Positions 8,024-64,000 of a stretch of DNA of 64,000 nt are shown here, piece after piece. The number at the start of each line of letters is the position of its first letter. Positions within the stretch are counted from its first letter, which is position 1. The position numbers and the translations under genes were made by a program. Source of the stretch: Oceanimonas pelagia (GTDB lineage: Bacteria > Pseudomonadota > Gammaproteobacteria > Enterobacterales > Aeromonadaceae); assembly GCF_030849025.1 (NCBI RefSeq), contig NZ_CP118224.1:3117001-3181000 (forward strand), given 5' to 3'. Under the pieces are notes generated by a model. It was not told the DNA's origin, made no database searches, and saw nothing but the letters and a program-made list of their open reading frames with translations.

Positions 8024-8256
8024 CACGCTTGTGAATTATGCCTTTAGCCACAGCCAGTCACTCCCCAGGAAGCACACTCGGCCCCTCACGCCAGAAAACC
8101 AAACTCAAAAGTCTGATTAATAAGCAAAAAACAAGAAACCAAAAGCCGAGAAACCGGCCTAAAAGCCTCATTCAGCACTTATTTATGGCCATCATTGTCA
8201 CAAAAAGAAAAAATAATTGTTATCTATTTTGTGATCCAGCACACGGAAAACGGCAA
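8024..8256. other. AT-rich intergenic region, no gene seen
   Basis: About 230 bp upstream of the racemase/permease operon promoter and downstream of the YeeN-like gene. A 73-codon reading frame exists from 8038 but has low-complexity, lysine- and arginine-rich content and no ribosome site, so I do not call it. No RNA structure other than the adjacent terminator was seen. Confidence 0.5.
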
Positions 8257-8286
8257 TAAAAAAACCCTCCAAAAGGAGGGTTTTAA
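8257..8286 (-). terminator. Intrinsic terminator of the YeeN-like gene
   Basis: CCCTCC AAAA GGAGGG stem with an A-run on the plus-strand left side, which reads as a T-run after the stem on the minus strand. Confidence 0.85.
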
Positions 8287-8308
8287 CATTCCATACGAGC
8301 CAGTGTGA

Positions 8309-9025
8309 TCAGTATTCGGCGTTGTGATAAACGTTCTGCACATCGTCCACGTCGTTGAGCATGTCGAGGAAGCGCTCCATCTGAGCCACGTCGTCGCCAC
8401 TGATCTGGACCGTGGTCTGGGGCACGAACTGAATGGCGTCCACCTCGAAGTCGATGCCTTCAAAGGCTTCGCTCAGGGCCTGCTTGGCCTTGAAATACTC
8501 GGTCTGGGGGGCAAACACAGTGATCTTGCCGTCTTCCAGCTCGATGTCGGTGACATCCACATCGGCCATCATCAGGGCCTCCAGCACGGCTTCCTCGTCG
8601 TCACCCTCAAACACCAGAATGGCGCAGTGATCAAACATGTGGCTGACGGTGCCGGAACTGCCCAGCTTGGCCTTAACCTTGTTGAAGCACTGGCGCACGT
8701 CACCAATGGTGCGGTTGGGGTTGTCGGTGAGGCAGTCGACGATCACCATGCAGTTGCCGGGACCAAAACCTTCATAGCGGGCCGGGGAAAAGTCTTCACC
8801 GGCGCCGCTGGTGGCCTTTTGCAGGGCCTTTTCAATCACGTGGGAAGGCACCTGGTCTTTTTTGGCGCGTTCGATCAGGCCACGCAGGCTCAGGTTGCCA
8901 TCAGGGTCGGCGCCCCCCGCCTTGGCGACCACGTAGATTTCGCGGCCGTACTTGCTGTAGACCTTGCTCTTGGCGTTGGCGGTCTTGGCGATGGATTCTT
9001 TGCGGTTTTGATAGGCTCTGCCCAT
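8309..9025 (-). CDS. YebC/PmpR-family protein, YeeN-like branch
   Basis: A 238-residue TACO1/YebC-fold protein. The N-terminus [19 protein letters not shown] followed by [15 protein letters not shown] is the YeeN-type variant rather than the canonical MAGHSKWANIKHRK start of YebC. The central [18 protein letters not shown] and the C-terminal TTVQISGDD segments are conserved across the family. Some members bind DNA as regulators and others help translation of proline-rich stretches; which applies here cannot be told. The ATG at 9025 matches the family start, in preference to a longer in-frame extension. The gene has its own terminator, and a separate canonical yebC would be expected elsewhere. 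Confidence 0.88.
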
Positions 9026-14392: not shown

Positions 14393-14609
14393 GATGTTAC
14401 TTCTTGCGTATCGAAAGACGGAAAAGCCCGAGTATACATGGGGACTCGTCAAATAACAGCCGCCTTGGCCGCCCGCAGGGAGGCCCGGATCACCCTGTGG
14501 CAAATACCCCTGCCCCTTGTCTGGTGACCAATTCGGCAGTTGTAGTAATATGACACACAAGTTTCAGTTGCTCGCTTCAAGCTTTCAAATAACAACATAG
14601 GGTTACACC

Positions 14610-54943: not shown

Positions 54944-56740
54944 TCACTCGTCCGCCTGCCGCCGCTGCTGTTGTTGCAACCACCAGAGCTGGGCATAAAG
55001 CCCGGCTTTGGCCAGCAACTGCGCGTGATTGCCCTGCTCGGCAATGCGGCCGTCCTGCATCACCAGAATATGATCGGCGTCCACTATGGTGGACAGCCGG
55101 TGAGCGATCACCAGGCTGCTCTGGCCCCGGGATACCTCGCGAATGGCCTGCAATATGCTGCGTTCGGAGCGGCTGTCCAGGGACGAGGTGGCCTCGTCAA
55201 ACACCAGTATCGGCGGGCGTTTCAGAATGGTGCGGGCAATGGCCACCCGCTGCTTTTCGCCGCCGCTGAGTTTGAGACCCCGCTCTCCCACCAGGGTGGC
55301 GCTGCCTTCGGGCAGGCTGGCAATAAAGTCGCTCAGGTGCGCCAGGCGAATGGCCTCTTTCACCTCCTGCTCGCCGGCGTCGATACGGCCATAACGGATG
55401 TTGTCGTAAATGGAGGCGTTAAACAGCACGGTATCCTGCGGCACTATGCCGATGGCCCGGCGCAGCGAGGCCTGGCTCACGCTGCGTATGTCCTGACCGT
55501 CGATCAGAATGGCGCCCTCGCCCACCTCGTAAAACCGAAACAGCAGCTTCACCAGGGTGGACTTGCCCGAGCCGCTGGCCCCCACCACCGCCAGCTTTTG
55601 CCGGGGCCTGAGGGTAAAGCTCAGATCGTGCAGAATCTGCCGGTCGGGGCGATAGCCAAAGCTGACGTTACGAAACTCGATTTCGCCCCGGCAGACCTTA
55701 AGCTCGGGCGCATGCTCCACATCGTTGATTTGCGGCCGGCGGCGCAGCAGCGCAAACATGCGCTCAATGTTGGCCAGCGAGCCCTTCATCTCCCGGTACA
55801 CAAAACCGAGAAAATTCAGCGGCAGAAACAGCTGCATCATAAAGGCGTTGATCAGCACAAAGTCGCCCAACGTCATGGTGCCCGCTACCACCTGCTGGCC
55901 CGCCAGTATCATCATGGCGGTCATGGCCACGGCAATGATCAGCGCCTGGCCGCCGTTCAGGGCAAACAGGCTGAGCCGGTTGTTGCGCCGGGCCCGCTCC
56001 CACTCCGCCAGATCCTGGTCGTAGCGGCCCGCCTCGTACTGCTCGTTGTTGAAGTATTTCACCGTTTCAAAGTTGAGCAGGCTGTCTACCGCCCGGCTGT
56101 GGGTCTGCGAGTCGGCCTTGTTGGCGGCGCGCACAAAGCCGGTGCGCCAGTCGGTGGCCACCACCGACCAGGCCACGTACACCACCACGGCGCCCAGGGT
56201 AATGAGCGCAAACCACACCGAGTAGTTGATCAGCAGCAGTGCCGTGACCAGGCCGATCTCCAGCAGGGTAGGCACGATATTGAACACCATAAAGCGCAGC
56301 AAAAAGCCCACCCCGGTCACACCCCGCTCTATGTCGCGGGACAGGCCGCCGGTGCTGCGGTTGAGGTGAAAGTCGAGCTCCAGCCGGTGCAGGTGGTTGA
56401 ACACACTCAGGCCAATGCGGCGCATGGCCCGCTCGGTAACCCGGCCAAACAGGGCATCGCGAATTTCGCCAAACAGCACATTGGCAAAGCGTACCGTGCC
56501 ATAGGCCAGCAGCAGCCCCAGGGGCAGCGCCACTACCGTGCTGACGGCGGAGTCCATACCATCGACGATGTATTTGAGAATAAAGGGCAGGCCCACGCTG
56601 GCCAGCTTGGCCGCCACCAGGCACAACAGCGCCAGGCCAATGCGGCCCTTGTAGGCCAGCAGGTAAGGAACAAGCGTTTTCAGGGTGCGAATATTGATGG
56701 TGGCGTCATCCATATCCGGGTGGTACGAGCCTCGGCGCAT
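54944..56740 (-). CDS. Atm1-like ABC exporter (permease-ATPase fusion)
   Basis: A 598-residue homodimeric exporter half. Six membrane helices (about 20-330) are followed by an ABC ATPase domain: Walker A VGASGSGKST near 393, signature LSGGEKQRVAIARTI and VFDEATSSLD. The NFETVKYFNNEQYE coupling region matches Atm1/HMT1-type exporters of glutathione-linked sulfur or heavy metals. The start is uncertain: ATG at 56740 or 56713, neither with a clear ribosome site; close spacing to the DUF2459 gene suggests translational coupling from 56740. Confidence 0.88.
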   Translation of the reverse strand: MRRGSYHPDMDDATINIRTLKTLVPYLLAYKGRIGLALLCLVAAKLASVGLPFILKYIVDGMDSAVSTVVALPLGLLLAYGTVRFANVLFGEIRDALFGRVTERAMRRIGLSVFNHLHRLELDFHLNRSTGGLSRDIERGVTGVGFLLRFMVFNIVPTLLEIGLVTALLLINYSVWFALITLGAVVVYVAWSVVATDWRTGFVRAANKADSQTHSRAVDSLLNFETVKYFNNEQYEAGRYDQDLAEWERARRNNRLSLFALNGGQALIIAVAMTAMMILAGQQVVAGTMTLGDFVLINAFMMQLFLPLNFLGFVYREMKGSLANIERMFALLRRRPQINDVEHAPELKVCRGEIEFRNVSFGYRPDRQILHDLSFTLRPRQKLAVVGASGSGKSTLVKLLFRFYEVGEGAILIDGQDIRSVSQASLRRAIGIVPQDTVLFNASIYDNIRYGRIDAGEQEVKEAIRLAHLSDFIASLPEGSATLVGERGLKLSGGEKQRVAIARTILKRPPILVFDEATSSLDSRSERSILQAIREVSRGQSSLVIAHRLSTIVDADHILVMQDGRIAEQGNHAQLLAKAGLYAQLWWLQQQQRRQADE

Positions 56741-58021: not shown

Positions 58022-58187
58022 TCCCACTCACTCCTTTTCTCAAAAAAAACTATGTAAACATCTGTTTGGTAAGGTTTTATAACACAATGCAAGGTAAAGA
58101 CATTTGTACATAAAACGCAAGGTTTCGCATGAACCCGACACCTCCTTGCTATAAGCTGGTGCTTTCATCTATGTGAAGGAAAGGCCG

Positions 58188-59147
58188 ATGGAACAGCTAC
58201 CGCAACAGTGCATTTATCGCCTGCAGCTTGGGGGTGAGAACGGGCTGCAGCCGCTGGCCGAAGGTGAGCCGGCGGCGGCGCCGGTGTGGCTGCATCTGGA
58301 CTATGAGCAGCCCGAGAGCGCCGGCTGGCTGCACACCACGCCGCTGATCCACGACAGCGCCCGGGACACCCTGCTGGGCCAGAGCAGCCGGCCCAAGCTG
58401 GTGCGCCAGGGCGACAACCTGCTGCTGACCCTGCGGGGCATCAACCACAACCAGGGCGACAGCCCGGAAGAGATGGTGGCGCTGCGCATTTACATTACGC
58501 CCCAGCTGATTATCAGCAGCCGGCACCGGCCCCTGCTGTCGGAGCGGGACGTGTACGAGCAGCTCGCCGACAGCGAAGGCCCGGTCACGCAGGGGGACTG
58601 GCTGGTGGAGATGTGCGACGCCCTCACCGACCGGGCCGGCGAGTTTGTGGAAAGCCTGCACGATCAAATTCTGGAACTGGAAGAGCGCATTCTGGAGCAG
58701 GAAAGTCCGGCCCAGGGCCAGCTGGGCCGTATTCGTAAACAATTGATTCTGGTACGCCGCTACCTTTCCCCCCAGCGGGATCTGGTGGCGAGGCTGGCCA
58801 GCGAGAAAATCGGCTGGCTCAATGACGACGATCGCCGCCGCCTGCTCGACATTGCCGACCGGCTGCGCCGCTGGCTGGACGATCTCGACGCCGGCGTGGC
58901 GCGCACCGCCGTGCTGGCGGACGAGGTCAATAACCTGATGGCCGAAGCCACTAACCAGCGCGCCTATCAGATGTCGATTATGGCGCTGCTGTTTCTGCCC
59001 GCCAGCTTTCTTACCGGCCTGTTCGGCATCAACCTGGCGGGCATGCCGGGGGCCGACAACCCCGCCGCCTTCTGGATTTTCTGCCTGAGCCTGCTGGCCC
59101 TGGGCGGCGGCCTGGGGTTCTGGCTGCACCGCAATCGCTGGTGGTAA
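58188..59147 (+). CDS. zntB: Zinc transporter ZntB (CorA family)
   Basis: A 319-residue CorA-family channel/transporter. The large cytoplasmic domain (about 1-255) is followed by two C-terminal helices. The loop after the first is FGINLAGMPG, a ZntB-like change from the GMN of CorA magnesium channels. ZntB moves zinc ions with protons. It is convergent with a Zur-box-controlled ABC importer, so zinc handling is clustered here. An AAGGAAAGG ribosome site precedes the ATG. Confidence 0.9.
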   Translation: MEQLPQQCIYRLQLGGENGLQPLAEGEPAAAPVWLHLDYEQPESAGWLHTTPLIHDSARDTLLGQSSRPKLVRQGDNLLLTLRGINHNQGDSPEEMVALRIYITPQLIISSRHRPLLSERDVYEQLADSEGPVTQGDWLVEMCDALTDRAGEFVESLHDQILELEERILEQESPAQGQLGRIRKQLILVRRYLSPQRDLVARLASEKIGWLNDDDRRRLLDIADRLRRWLDDLDAGVARTAVLADEVNNLMAEATNQRAYQMSIMALLFLPASFLTGLFGINLAGMPGADNPAAFWIFCLSLLALGGGLGFWLHRNRWW

Positions 59148-59148
59148 G

Positions 59149-60528
59149 TCAGCCCAGGGTCAACACCCGGTCCGCCACCTTGTTCACCAGCGCCGCCTCG
59201 TGGCTCACCAGCAGCAGGGCACAGCCCCGTTCCCGGGCCAGATCGGTCAGCAATTTGATGGTGTGCTGCTGGGTCACCAGATCCAGCCGCGAGGTGGGCT
59301 CGTCGGCAAACAGCAGCACCGGCTCCAGCAGCAGAATGCGCAGGATTGCCAGCCGCTGCAGCTCGCCCCCCGACACTTCGCGGGGCAGGCGATCCAGCAG
59401 ATTCAGAGACAGCCCCTGGCGGGGCAGCAGCCGCTCCACTTCGGCCCAGTCCTTGCGGTGCAGTTTCACCAGATCCTGCAGGCCCTGGCCCAGGCGGCAT
59501 TCCGGGGCAAAGGCGGCGGGCGGATCCTGATACAGCTTCTGGTAGCGAGTGCGAGGCAGGCTGGCATCGCGCCATACCGTGCCGGCGTCCGGCTCCAGCA
59601 ACCCAAGGCAAATGCTGCCCAGGGTGCTCTTGCCGCAGCCGCTCGGGCCCACCACCCCCATGATCTCGCCGGCGTTCAGCTCAAAGGAAACATCACTGAA
59701 CAGGCGGCGGCCGCCCCGGGACTTGGCCAGCCCTTCCACTTTAAGCACGCGCTCACCGGCGCCGGCCGGCGCCAGGGCCGGCCAGGCGTCGGGCTCCGCC
59801 GCCAGCAGGGCCCGGCCATAGTCGCTCACCGGCGCCTTCAGCACCTCTTTCGCCGGGCCGGATTCCAGCACCTCGCCATTGCGCACTATCATCACCTCGC
59901 CGCCGAGCTGGCGGGCCACGGCAATGTCGTGGGTAATGGTGAGCAAGCCACCCCCCGCCTCGGCCACCTGCCTGAGCAGCCCGGTCACTTGATCCCGGCT
60001 GCCGGCGTCCAGGCCCTTGGTGGGCTCGTCGGCAATCACGATATCGGCGCCGCCGGTGCTGGCGGCGGCAAAGGCCAGCCGCTGCATCATGCCCCCCGAG
60101 AGCTGGCCCGGCAGCCGATCAAGGGCATGATCCAGGCCAAGCCGGGTCAGATCCTCTTTGGCCAGCCGCCGGGCTTCAGGCCAGTCCCGGTCCGCCAGGT
60201 AGCGATAGCCCTCGGCCACCTGATCCACCGCCTTCATGGTGGGGTCCAGCGCCAGCCAGGGCTCCTGGGGTAGCATGGTGAGCCGGCGGCCCCACAGTTT
60301 GCGCCGCTCGGCGGCGGGCCGGCCGCTGAGCTCTTCGCCCCGCAGCCAGAGCCGGCCTTCCACCCGCAGCGCCGCCGGCAGGTTGCCCATAATGGCCTGG
60401 GCAATCAGGCTTTTGCCGGAGCCGGTTTCCCCCAGCAGGGTCAGCGGCCGTCCGGCGGTAAGGGTAAACGACAGCGGCCGCACTATGCCGGGCACCGCCA
60501 GTTGCTGTGCTTTCAGCAATTCGGTCAT
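59149..60528 (-). CDS. Fused double ABC ATPase of a peptide/nickel-class importer
   Basis: A 459-residue protein with two complete ABC modules (DppD/DppF-like). The first has GETGSGKS, LSGGMMQRLAFA; the second GPSGCGKST, VSGGELQRLAI. It powers the permease pair upstream. Its ATG overlaps the permease stop by 4 bp. It ends 1 bp from the zntB stop on the other strand. Fusion of both ATPases is common in nickel and metallophore importers. Confidence 0.9.
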   Translation of the reverse strand: MTELLKAQQLAVPGIVRPLSFTLTAGRPLTLLGETGSGKSLIAQAIMGNLPAALRVEGRLWLRGEELSGRPAAERRKLWGRRLTMLPQEPWLALDPTMKAVDQVAEGYRYLADRDWPEARRLAKEDLTRLGLDHALDRLPGQLSGGMMQRLAFAAASTGGADIVIADEPTKGLDAGSRDQVTGLLRQVAEAGGGLLTITHDIAVARQLGGEVMIVRNGEVLESGPAKEVLKAPVSDYGRALLAAEPDAWPALAPAGAGERVLKVEGLAKSRGGRRLFSDVSFELNAGEIMGVVGPSGCGKSTLGSICLGLLEPDAGTVWRDASLPRTRYQKLYQDPPAAFAPECRLGQGLQDLVKLHRKDWAEVERLLPRQGLSLNLLDRLPREVSGGELQRLAILRILLLEPVLLFADEPTSRLDLVTQQHTIKLLTDLARERGCALLLVSHEAALVNKVADRVLTLG

Positions 60529-61361
60529 GGTTTGCGGCCTCCCGCCAGCAGGTTAAGGGCCAGCACCAGCAGAAACACCGCCGCTATGGGTTGCAGCAGT
60601 ATCCAGGGGGCCTCGTGGTAATAGGGCAACAGCTCGGTCATCATCAGGCCCAGCTCGGCGGTGGGCGGGCGCAGCCCGACGCTGACAAAACCCAGGGCGG
60701 CAATGGCCAGAATGGCAGTGGCGGCGCCAAAGGCACCCAGGGTCAGCACCACGGGCGCCAGCGCCGGCCACAGGTGACGGCGCACTATATAGCCGGGGCC
60801 AAAGCCCAGCAGGCGCGAGGCCTCGATTTGCGGCGACGCCATCAGGGTACGGGTGGTCAGGCGCACCACGCGAAAATATTCAATCCACAGCACCAGGGCA
60901 ATGCCCACATACAGGGTCCAGAAATTGCCCGGCGCCAGGGCCACCAGCAGCAGCACCAGCAACAGCCCGGGCAGGGCCAGCAGGGTGTCGGCCAGCACGC
61001 CCAGCGCCCGGTCTACCCAGCCGCCGCGCCAGCCGGCAAGCACGCCCAGCAGCACGCCGGGCACGGCGGCGGTCACCACGCCCAGCAGCGACAGGCCCAA
61101 AGACAACTGCACCGCCGAGCTCATACGCGCCAGCATGCTGCGGCCCAGGTGATCGGTGCCAAACGGTTCGGCTGCTCCCGGCGCGGCCAAAATGCGACTG
61201 TAATTCTGCTTTACCGGATCCAGATCCATCACCAGCGGCAACACAAAGCCAAACAGGGCCAGGGCCAGCAACAGGCCGGCACCCCAGCGCTGACGGGTGT
61301 TCAGCCACCGGCGACCGCCGGCTTGGGCCGCCGGGGCGGCAAGGTCAGTCACCTGGCTCAT
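60525..61361 (-). CDS. ABC importer permease, DppC-like
   Basis: A 278-residue inner-membrane permease with about six helices. The N-terminal arm ends near the first helix (GLLLALALFGFVLPLVM), and the EAA-like loop EASRLLGFGPGYIVRRHLWPALAP contacts the ATPase. Its start overlaps the preceding permease by 4 bp, and an AAGGAGAG ribosome site is present at 61361. Confidence 0.9.
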   Translation of the reverse strand: MSQVTDLAAPAAQAGGRRWLNTRQRWGAGLLLALALFGFVLPLVMDLDPVKQNYSRILAAPGAAEPFGTDHLGRSMLARMSSAVQLSLGLSLLGVVTAAVPGVLLGVLAGWRGGWVDRALGVLADTLLALPGLLLVLLLVALAPGNFWTLYVGIALVLWIEYFRVVRLTTRTLMASPQIEASRLLGFGPGYIVRRHLWPALAPVVLTLGAFGAATAILAIAALGFVSVGLRPPTAELGLMMTELLPYYHEAPWILLQPIAAVFLLVLALNLLAGGRKP

Positions 61362-62293
61362 ACTTCTCTCCTTCTCGGATCGATACGGTGGCACAACAGG
61401 TCCACCAGGGCGTTCAGCAGTACGAACATCAGCCCCAGCACCAGGGCGGTGCCCTGGATCATGGGCACGTCCCGCGCCACGATGGCGTGCACCAGGGCAT
61501 GGCCGATGCCGGGCCAGGCAAACAGGGTTTCCACCACCACCACGCCTTCGATCAGATACACCAGTTGCATGGCCTGATGGGCCAGCACCGGCACCGCCAC
61601 ATTACGCAGGCCATGGCGCATAAACACTCGGCCCTCGCTCAGCCCCTTGGTGCGGCCAAAGGCGTAATAGGCGGAGTCGGCCACGCCCTGCATGGCGTTG
61701 CGGCTCACTCGGCAGGCCACCGCCGCCAGCCCCAGGGCCAGGGTCAGCGCCGGCAGCAGGGTGTGGGCGGCGGTGCCATGGCCGGCGGCGGGCAGCCAGC
61801 CCAGCTGCACCGCCAGCAACATCACCAGCAAAATGCCGATCACAAACTGAGGCAGGGCCCGCAGCACGGTGGCCAGCACCAGGGTCAGCCGGTCCAGCCG
61901 GCCGCCGGGCCTGAGCCCGGCGAGCAGGCCAAGGGGCGGCCCCAGCAACAGCGACAGGCCCACCGCGGCCACGGCCAGGGTGAAGGAGTGGCCCAGCTGG
62001 TGACGCAATTCCTCAATGACAGGGTCGCCGCTCACCAGGGAGTTGCCCAGGTCGAGCCGCAGCAGATCCCACAGCCACTGGCCCAGGGCCTGCCAGGCGG
62101 GCAGGCCCAGTCCCAGCTCGGCCTGCACCGCGGCGGCGGCGGCGGCATTTACATGGTCATAACCATAACGGCCGGCGGCAATGCGAAAGGCCATGTCGCC
62201 GGGCAGCGCCTGGGTGAGCACAAAGGTCAGCACGCCCACCATCAGCGCCACCAGCACCGCCTGCATCAGCCGATAGCTTAATACCGGTATCAC
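61358..62293 (-). CDS. ABC importer permease, DppB-like
   Basis: A 311-residue permease with about six helices and the FGRTKGLSEGRVFMRHGLRNVAVP coupling loop. A GTG at 62293 overlaps the substrate-binding protein stop as GTGA, the usual coupled start in such operons, so I prefer it to a GTG three codons upstream. DppB-type permease of a peptide/nickel family importer. Confidence 0.88.
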   Translation of the reverse strand: MIPVLSYRLMQAVLVALMVGVLTFVLTQALPGDMAFRIAAGRYGYDHVNAAAAAAVQAELGLGLPAWQALGQWLWDLLRLDLGNSLVSGDPVIEELRHQLGHSFTLAVAAVGLSLLLGPPLGLLAGLRPGGRLDRLTLVLATVLRALPQFVIGILLVMLLAVQLGWLPAAGHGTAAHTLLPALTLALGLAAVACRVSRNAMQGVADSAYYAFGRTKGLSEGRVFMRHGLRNVAVPVLAHQAMQLVYLIEGVVVVETLFAWPGIGHALVHAIVARDVPMIQGTALVLGLMFVLLNALVDLLCHRIDPRRREV

Positions 62294-63810
62294 TGGGCCC
62301 ACCTCATGTCGCTCACGCGATAGCTGCGCTCAAAGGGATCCATGCTGAAGCCCTCAACCTGCCTGGATACGGCGGCGGTCTGCTGATACCAGGCCACGGG
62401 AATCACCGGCAGCTGCTCATGCAAAATGGTGGCGGCTTCACGGCGCAATGCGGCGGTATCCTGGTCCTGGGTGGCGGTCAGCAGTTGCTGCAAAATCTCG
62501 CCCAGGCGCTCGGAGTGCCAGTTCATCGCGCCCCAGTCGCCGCCGTTCGGTCCAAAGTCCTGCAGCAGGGTGCCCAGAGGATCGGGCACCAGGGCAAAGT
62601 TGCGGGCCATCAGCCCCAGCTCCAGGGTACCGTCCCGGTGACCGGCGGGTATTTCACTGGAGTTGGCCACGTTCACCGCCAGCTCCACCCCCAGCTCCCG
62701 CCACTGATCCTGAATGGCGGTGGCCAGCAGGGGCAGCTCGGGCCGGTCGGAGAAGGTGGTCAGGGTCAGTTTAAAGGGCGTGCCGTTGCGGCTGAGCATG
62801 CCCTTGTCGTTCGCCTGCCAGCCCAGCCCGGCAAGCAGGGCCTTGGCCTGTTGCAGATCCCGCTCGGCACCGCTCACCTGGCTCAGGTGCCAGTCGGTCA
62901 TGGACGGCGGAAACAGCTGGCCGGCACCGGCCTCGGGGGTGCGCAGCAGGGCCACCGCCATGCCGGTGCGCTCCAGCGCCAGACTCAGGGCCCGGCGCGC
63001 CTCGGGCTCGGCCAAAAAGGGATGCCCGGCGTTTACCTTCAGGGTCACGGTGCGGGGAATGGCCACGGCCTGCACGGCGAGTTTGGCATTGCGCTGCAGC
63101 CGGGCTCGGCTTGCCGGATCCAGGGTAAACACGACATCGGCATCGCCGCTTTCGGCCATCAGTGCCCGGGTTTCGCCCCGGCCGGCGGCCAGGTAGCTGA
63201 GCCGTTCAATGGCCGGGGCTTCACCCCAGTAATCCTGAAAGACTCCGGCGGTCAGCTTTTGCGGCATTTGCAGCTGTTCAATGCGGTAGGGGCCGGTGCC
63301 AATGACCTGGGTGGCTTCGCCCGCCTCGTTGTAGGACGCCGGCGCCAGTATCTGCACCGAGCTGTGCGCCAGCAGGGCCGGCAGCGGCGCAAAGGGACTG
63401 CGCAGCCGCACCACCACCTCGTTGCCTTCGGCGGCAATGGCCGCCACCGGCGCCTGACTCAGCATGCCCGGTTTGGCCAGGGCCAGGTTCAACGCCTGCA
63501 CGGCCACCTCGGCGGTCAGCGGGCTGCCGTCGTGAAACTGCACGCCCGGGCGCAGGCGAAAGCGCCAGGTCAGCCGGTCTTCAGACAGCGTCCAGCTTTC
63601 GGCCAGGCCGGCCTCGGGCTGGCCCCGATCGTCGACCTCTACCAGGGTCTCGCTGATCTGCAGCCGAGTGTAAACATAACCGGCCTTGGCGGGGTCTGTG
63701 CTGCCAATCTCCCAGGGCGCGACGATGTCGAGCACGCCTTCGGTGGCATGAGAAACAGCGGTAACGGCCAGCAGGCCGGCACCGAGCAGGATCGAACGGG
63801 GTTGCAACAT
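62290..63810 (-). CDS. Family 5 extracytoplasmic solute-binding protein of a Zur-linked ABC importer
   Basis: A 506-residue periplasmic binding protein with signal peptide (MLQPRSILLGAGLLAVTAVSHA). The SBP_bac_5 family binds peptides, nickel-chelates or opine-type metallophores. LRPGVQFHDGSPLTAEVAVQAL is the family signature. First gene of a four-gene importer operon, with a Zur box over its promoter (63847-63861), so zinc or a zinc-chelate is the probable cargo. That is inferred from the site. Confidence 0.9.
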   Translation of the reverse strand: MLQPRSILLGAGLLAVTAVSHATEGVLDIVAPWEIGSTDPAKAGYVYTRLQISETLVEVDDRGQPEAGLAESWTLSEDRLTWRFRLRPGVQFHDGSPLTAEVAVQALNLALAKPGMLSQAPVAAIAAEGNEVVVRLRSPFAPLPALLAHSSVQILAPASYNEAGEATQVIGTGPYRIEQLQMPQKLTAGVFQDYWGEAPAIERLSYLAAGRGETRALMAESGDADVVFTLDPASRARLQRNAKLAVQAVAIPRTVTLKVNAGHPFLAEPEARRALSLALERTGMAVALLRTPEAGAGQLFPPSMTDWHLSQVSGAERDLQQAKALLAGLGWQANDKGMLSRNGTPFKLTLTTFSDRPELPLLATAIQDQWRELGVELAVNVANSSEIPAGHRDGTLELGLMARNFALVPDPLGTLLQDFGPNGGDWGAMNWHSERLGEILQQLLTATQDQDTAALRREAATILHEQLPVIPVAWYQQTAAVSRQVEGFSMDPFERSYRVSDMRWAQ

Positions 63811-63846
63811 GGGGGCTACCTGAACAGAAGAATGAATGGTTGATAT

Positions 63847-63861
63847 TGTTATAATATAACA
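63847..63861. promoter_or_regulatory. Zur box upstream of the ABC importer operon
   Basis: TGTTATAATATAACA, a perfect palindrome with centre A, is the core of the gammaproteobacterial Zur consensus GAAATGTTATAATATAACATTTC. It sits 37 bp before the substrate-binding protein start and overlaps a -10-like TATATT on the minus strand. It also holds a TATAAT on the plus strand, so it could affect the divergent gene as well. Confidence 0.8.
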
Positions 63862-63977
63862 TCACAAATATCCTTCATCCTCCCTCTTCAATGCAAGCAT
63901 TTTTTAGTGAGCAGGGTCTCTGTGACCAAACCCATGAGCCATGCTTGTAGCTGACCCTCTTTCAAGGAGAGATTCAA

Positions 63978-64000
63978 ATGAAGAAATTCTTCTGTGGTCT
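63978..64000 (+). CDS. 5' end of an unidentified gene
   Basis: The first seven complete codons (MKKFFCG) of a plus-strand gene that continues past the window. AAGGAGA seven bases upstream is a strong ribosome site, and the start suggests a signal peptide. It is divergent from the Zur-box operon, 168 bp away. Confidence 0.5.

Follow-up and report, generated by a model that had tools for sequence, protein, structure and literature searches.

The zinc that bacteria encounter in water, in soil and on plants is mostly complexed, and the best-known zinc importers take up the bare zinc ion. Among solute-binding proteins of ATP-binding cassette (ABC) importers, family 5 consists largely of peptide binders. 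According to the accessible part of PMC5387054, ZnuABC and AztABCD are members of the Zur regulon and of the cluster A-I kind, in which the importer binds the metal itself. The same part of that paper describes the Paracoccus denitrificans gene pden1341, which was induced 16-fold in zinc-depleted medium and 8.2-fold with a chelator, whose promoter was bound by Zur in gel shifts and whose Zur motif, GTAATATAATAACAT, is printed in Table 7; the Pden1341 importer is given there with no known substrate, and direct Zur control of such an importer is termed somewhat unusual. In this study, a window of 64,000 nt (the whole stretch of DNA that was analysed) within the 3.59 Mb genome of Oceanimonas pelagia was investigated, focusing on a family-5 ABC importer operon that stands behind a candidate Zur box. 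L-numbers are used as labels for individual genomic loci.

The preliminary description of the window had reported a perfect palindrome in front of a complete operon of SBP_bac_5 protein, two permeases and fused ATPase, and both the palindrome and, by Pfam, the four genes were recovered. The 15-mer TGTTATAATATAACA, a perfect 7-1-7 inverted repeat to which no strand is assigned, was found as an exact match at positions 63847..63861, 36 bp upstream of the ATG of the gene encoding a family-5 periplasmic solute-binding protein of 506 aa (62290..63810, minus strand; Pfam PF00496, SBP_bac_5, 218.8 bits). The remaining genes encode inner-membrane permease B of the DppB/NikB type (61358..62302, minus strand; Pfam PF00528, BPD_transp_1, 132 bits), whose top NCBIfam model was Opp2B with 264 bits, under its cut-off of 350, inner-membrane permease C of the DppC/NikC type (60525..61394, minus strand; PF00528, 79.3 bits), for which an internal ATG may be the true start, and a fused double ABC ATPase of 459 aa (59149..60528, minus strand), which matched Pfam ABC_tran in two stretches and in its translation shows two Walker A motifs (GETGSGKS and GPSGCGKS) and two signature motifs (LSGGMMQ and VSGGELQ). 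The importer is a complete set of four genes, all on the minus strand, and since their reading frames overlap end to end, the four genes likely share one transcript. No promoter was found by a sigma-70 consensus scan of 63780-64000.

At up to three mismatches the pattern matched three times in the window, compared with a mean of 0.08 in 100 window shuffles; these matches were the two strands of the site at 63847-63861 and one at 14541 with three mismatches. At up to two mismatches, only five places matched genome-wide; they precede this operon, the divergent pair of znuA and znuC-znuB (L008), zigA and the DUF1826 gene that diverges from it (L009), a zrgA-family gene with ABC genes behind it (L007) and a COG0523 (cobW-domain) gene (L010). 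The ZnuA and ZigA proteins of this genome exceed their NCBIfam cut-offs (ZnuA with 322 bits versus 268), the zrgA-family gene of L007 is above the Pfam cut-off (168 versus 27) and under that of NCBIfam (127 versus 185), and the L010 gene is above the Pfam cobW cut-off and above no NCBIfam cut-off. The genome search gave five family-5 binding proteins, and the box accompanies only that of the window importer. Zur itself is encoded in the genome (NCBIfam NF008646, 170 bits versus a cut-off of 167).

The threshold for orthologues of the binding protein in 75 genomes of the same bacterial family was set at E up to 1e-40. Orthologues were found in 21 of the 75, the source genome counted, and the box stands beside the orthologue in all 21, at no more than two mismatches when the centre base was left free. 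The control loci of other family-5 binding proteins, 4 from this genome and 29 from the family, were scanned over their whole length of ~4 kb, and contained no match at up to two mismatches (0/33) and two loci with exactly three mismatches (2/33). When 8 loci of the same genus were aligned, the box formed the longest conserved non-coding block as judged by eye. In the Oceanisphaera psychrotolerans record (L018, L034, L044) the binding-protein frame is broken in its first part and the box is retained.

A wider set comprised the best 80 of 281 relatives among named genomes, some of which repeat genomes of the family set. Its taxa include Zobellella, Oceanimonas, Halomonas kin, Aeromonas, Erwinia and Pantoea, as well as Rhizobium, Azospirillum, Paracoccus, Cupriavidus, Methylorubrum and others. 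The box at up to three mismatches was present within 460 bp upstream in 49 of these 80 relatives, compared with 23 of 2669 length-matched background windows, and some of the 23 may be true boxes of neighbouring genes. Zinc-type genes (ZigA, DUF1826, Znu/Azt/Tro type and ZrgA, at 50 bits or more and up to ~8 kb on either side) were found near 20 of the 80, and a box or a zinc gene in 65. Some relatives have AztC-like or Znu-type genes as neighbours, and when the importer is embedded in a longer series of zinc genes the box precedes an upstream gene, as in L046 and L108. A ZrgA zinc-uptake gene above the NCBIfam cut-off was also observed directly behind the importer at L092:12631-13338 and L100:12608-13336. 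Directly upstream of the importer, a gene for a small DUF6525 protein (Pfam) was recorded at L091:7626-7922 and L106:7625-7906, and DUF6525-like frames occupy the same place in L083, L095, L100 and L112 (alphaproteobacteria).

One relative, L099, is Paracoccus denitrificans DSM 413, with a binding protein 52% identical over the best segment. Because its upstream box contains the motif printed for pden1341, the L099 protein was taken as Pden1341, and by this analogy Zur control of such an importer would already be known in kind. The accessible parts of the literature yielded no second clear case of a Zur-controlled importer of this type and no named substrate, which is not proof that there is none, and those on Cupriavidus metallidurans yielded no Zur box sequence. 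Since the other box targets of the genome are zinc genes, Zur is encoded and the box is conserved with the orthologues, Zur control, which the preliminary description had proposed and for which the accessible part of PMC5387054 offers a precedent, is strongly supported; the operon is almost certainly under zinc control by Zur, as far as sequence can tell, and very probably switched on only in zinc shortage.

Other metal switches and partners were found among the relatives and in a survey of 398 sampled genomes of the phylum, of which 17, the source genome counted, encode the binding protein (E up to 1e-100). The box pattern described above (the first box type) lies within 450 bp of the importer in 9 of the 16 other survey loci, two of which, L176 and L179, look like records already among the 80; in L176 it precedes upstream zinc-type genes (TroB type and DUF1826). 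Six importers have a TonB receptor gene immediately upstream on their own strand, namely L101, L113 and L118 among the 80 and L180, L182 and L183, the last of these with no other link, in the survey; all five receptors scored (all but L183) reached 340-391 bits with a siderophore-receptor NCBIfam model, versus 223.5. A divergent gene in L191 was rejected as a TonB receptor, having matched only an autotransporter model. In L101 a divergent Fur-family regulator scored 48.6 bits as PerR and 24 as Zur, below all cut-offs, and the best matches to a Fur box in the six TonB-importer loci had at least 7 mismatches of 19.

Cobalamin riboswitches lead the importer operons at L113:5327-5535, L118:5359-5567, L088:7668-7852 and L070:7457-7640 (116-129 bits versus 31.5, Rfam), and in L113 and L118 the siderophore-type TonB receptor gene sits between riboswitch and importer. 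The Rfam run covered 20 of the 80 loci, including the full set of 15 that lack both box and zinc gene, and all 16 survey loci; a rough search of the 80 for the core motif missed L088 and L070 and is not a survey. The riboswitches of L106 and L076 were not counted, being on the opposite strand or more than 4 kb distant. In L186 a NikR gene (8152-8598, minus strand) is divergent from a 45% identical importer, scoring 114.5 bits versus 83 in one model and staying under the cut-offs of two others, and a NikR-like GTGTGA-N15-TCACAC repeat was seen by eye between the two. A second box type, TGCAACNNNGTTGCA, precedes the TonB-importer operons of L182 (0 mismatches, ~48 bp before the open frame of the TonB gene) and L180 (1 mismatch, ~86 bp); it forms the core of ATGCAACNNNGTTGCAT, the Zur box predicted for Desulfovibrio in the accessible part of PMC545781, and at up to one mismatch it was matched anywhere in 5 of 96 loci. 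Two close variants of it occur in L079 (2834-2879) ahead of azt-zigA genes, and taken alone they are weak because each has 2 mismatches and an equally good match occurs somewhere in 44 of the 96 loci. The Desulfovibrio-type Zur box may be distributed beyond Desulfovibrio.

A quickly built tree had 79 rows, including 4 outgroup rows that did not group as one. On this tree, L113/L118, L186 and the TonB loci share groups of at least 95% support with Zur-linked members. L088 and L070 form a pair whose deep branch is not resolved, and the riboswitch may therefore have been acquired twice. The tree needs at least 5 changes of label; the labels were set by hand and take no account of the second box type and the L070 riboswitch (L180/L182 labelled TonB, L070 none), and the Zur label of L091 rests on a 34-bit DUF1826 hit.

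Because importers of one clade swap among three metal switches and recurrently take a TonB partner, a carrier of metal complexes fits better than a peptide carrier, and the distribution points to a metal-chelate importer with a swapped regulator rather than to a peptide importer. On balance, the system is probably a zinc-starvation importer of small divalent-metal complexes, with zinc the likeliest metal here. At ample zinc, zinc-loaded Zur would occupy the box at 63847-63861 and keep the operon off; when zinc drops, Zur would leave, and binding protein, two permeases and fused double ATPase would be made. The binding protein would then capture a small divalent-metal complex in the periplasm, for this lineage most probably zinc bound to an environmental chelator of the amino-acid or aminocarboxylate type, and the whole complex would be carried into the cytoplasm alongside the work of ZnuABC. 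Since no boxed TonB receptor was found in this genome, small complexes that pass porins would be the likeliest food. We infer a metal-chelate cargo, zinc as its metal, entry through porins and a ligand role for His391, which stands at NikA Gln385 and is invariant in 75 of 75 relatives. The chelated-zinc cargo put forward in the preliminary description has thus become likelier through the TonB receptors, cobalamin riboswitches and NikR of the relatives, and is still an inference. A bolder combined proposal, which we hold tentatively and give somewhat less than even chances, is that of a metal-neutral chelate carrier whose use is set by the promoter switch (two Zur box types for zinc, cobalamin riboswitch for cobalt, NikR for nickel), with a site of its own in which the invariant His391 replaces His416, and which in the lineage of the window lacks a dedicated outer-membrane receptor and is fed by small zinc complexes made by others.

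The model of the binding protein by AlphaFold has a mean predicted local distance difference test score (pLDDT) of 92.2, and its closest solved folds include NikA and CntA. The preliminary description had suggested a comparison with the ligand residues of CntA, NikA and DppA; the NikA fold was confirmed (template modelling score 0.84-0.85 to unliganded NikA 1uiu, Foldseek and VIA-align 2), and sequence scores stayed under the NCBIfam cut-offs for NikA (205 versus 600 and 166 versus 393 bits), CntA (105 versus 800), DppA (74 versus 1005), OppA (56 versus 947) and GsiB (82 versus 594). A ZnuA-type binding protein is not indicated, with only SBP_bac_5 matched and a true ZnuA encoded elsewhere in the genome.

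Several observations weigh against a zinc-chelate importer. In structural comparison, family-5 proteins whose ligand is a peptide, glutathione or heme come close to the same scores, and the GsiB-type YliB outscores NikA. In NikA, His416 is a metal ligand and Arg137 a carboxylate ligand (accessible parts of PMC11091072, PMC2667541 and PMC7312458); the position of His416 is Gly423 in the window protein and holds histidine in 0 of 75 members, that of Arg137 is Ser151 and holds arginine in 27 of 75 and not in 48, so the way in which NikA holds its chelate is not kept. Neither box nor zinc neighbour was found in 15 of the 80 relatives, and with four of these led by a cobalamin riboswitch and one, L101, beside a TonB receptor, 10 remain unexplained; survey loci L185 and L191 likewise lack a metal link among the features searched. 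The riboswitch-linked clade could carry a corrinoid instead. Four TonB receptors were found in the genome of the window, none with a box, and the literature searched gave no measured ligand for any member. Against the box itself, the pattern at up to three mismatches occurred genome-wide on both strands 19 times versus 23 for the reversed pattern, so that these weaker matches carry no meaning.

The last of these counts, no higher than its control, is also what would favour the palindrome being a chance AT-rich match before an operon that is not zinc-regulated; the exact 15-mer, its presence beside 21 of 21 orthologues, its absence at up to two mismatches from the 33 controls and the P. denitrificans relative leave that reading a negligible probability, and it was rejected on the conservation and the controls. 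A greater, though still low, probability is given to the import of a metal-free nutrient, such as a di- or tripeptide, histidine, cysteine or a glutathione fragment, that would help the cell through zinc shortage, for instance by supplying intracellular zinc buffers. The mainly peptide nature of the family, the closeness in fold of DppA, YliB/GsiB and glutathione-binding proteins, the divergent glutathione-peroxidase-like gene and the 5-oxoprolinase-like genes beyond it would suit such a role, whereas the binding protein stays under the DppA, OppA and GsiB cut-offs, and the zinc genes, cobalamin riboswitches, NikR and TonB receptors of the relatives would be needless for a peptide importer.

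The same low probability is given to a carrier of cobalt or nickel complexes that replace scarce zinc, for which Zur would give the timing only. The nearest characterised sequence relatives are nickel-binding proteins, and some relatives lie behind cobalamin riboswitches or beside nikR; however, a Zur box or zinc gene accompanies 65 of the best 80, the window copy has the Zur box and the nickel ligand His416 is found in none of the 75 members. The preliminary description had also considered an opine cargo, and for the import of an opine metallophore made by the cell itself, in the manner of staphylopine or pseudopaline, one could cite the relation of CntA in fold and sequence and the dipeptide-type importers known from zincophore clusters (accessible part of PMC7438024). 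Yet the CntA model falls far short, and the genes read next to the operon included no opine or nicotianamine-synthase-like gene or other synthesis gene (the nicotianamine-synthase-like family was not searched for as such); the opine idea is left without support and is very improbable. The opine dehydrogenase family PF10100 was matched in 0 of 75 family and 0 of 398 phylum genomes, but the control genomes were equally without a match, so these zeros carry no weight. The zinc-starvation importer of small metal complexes remains the preferred reading.

Among the neighbouring genes, zntB, encoding a CorA-family zinc transporter, lies convergent and outside the operon just downstream (58173..59147, plus strand), as previously described (NCBIfam NF007092, 457.6 bits versus a cut-off of 292). 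The gene that begins at 63978, which the preliminary description had proposed to read, with its neighbours, for a TonB receptor or a nicotianamine-synthase-like gene, is neither of these and turned out to be glutathione-peroxidase-like (63978..64000 for its start in the window, plus strand, divergent; 179 aa; open reading frame L006:10979-11518, continuing beyond the window end; Pfam GSHPx, 91.7 bits). Just beyond the window end, 5-oxoprolinase pxpABC-like genes were noted at L006:13732-16096 (Pfam LamB/YcsF with 325 bits and CT_A_B with 289; the gene between them was judged by eye). A few genes from zntB, an ABC exporter with membrane and ATPase domains by Pfam occupies 54944-56740 on the minus strand and by eye has an ATM1/HMT1-like appearance; exporters of this kind are tied to glutathione and metals.

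If the clade carries zinc chelates, it would constitute a widespread second route of zinc uptake, and the swaps among zinc, cobalt-vitamin and nickel control would, if true, show one carrier recruited for different metals. The residues named here and the P. denitrificans relative make the question of the cargo directly testable.

Compared with the described systems, the importer shares with NikABCDE of E. coli the fold of the binding protein and the types of permeases and ATPases, and differs from it in that His416 and Arg137 are not kept, the ATPases are fused and a Zur box stands where NikABCDE has NikR control. From CntABCDF, the staphylopine importer of S. aureus, it differs in having one fused ATPase gene in place of two (CntD and CntF), in showing no opine synthesis genes alongside and in scoring far under the CntA cut-off. 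With ZnuABC and AztABCD it would share the Zur regulon, whereas it belongs to family 5. The closest likeness is to Pden1338-1344 (COG0523, two hypothetical proteins and a cluster C ABC importer), which has a homologous binding protein, two permeases and a single ATPase gene, a Zur box before the binding-protein gene and, in L099, a ZigA-like gene upstream, whereas the importer of the window stands alone beside zntB with its own box, which is of the gamma-proteobacterial form.

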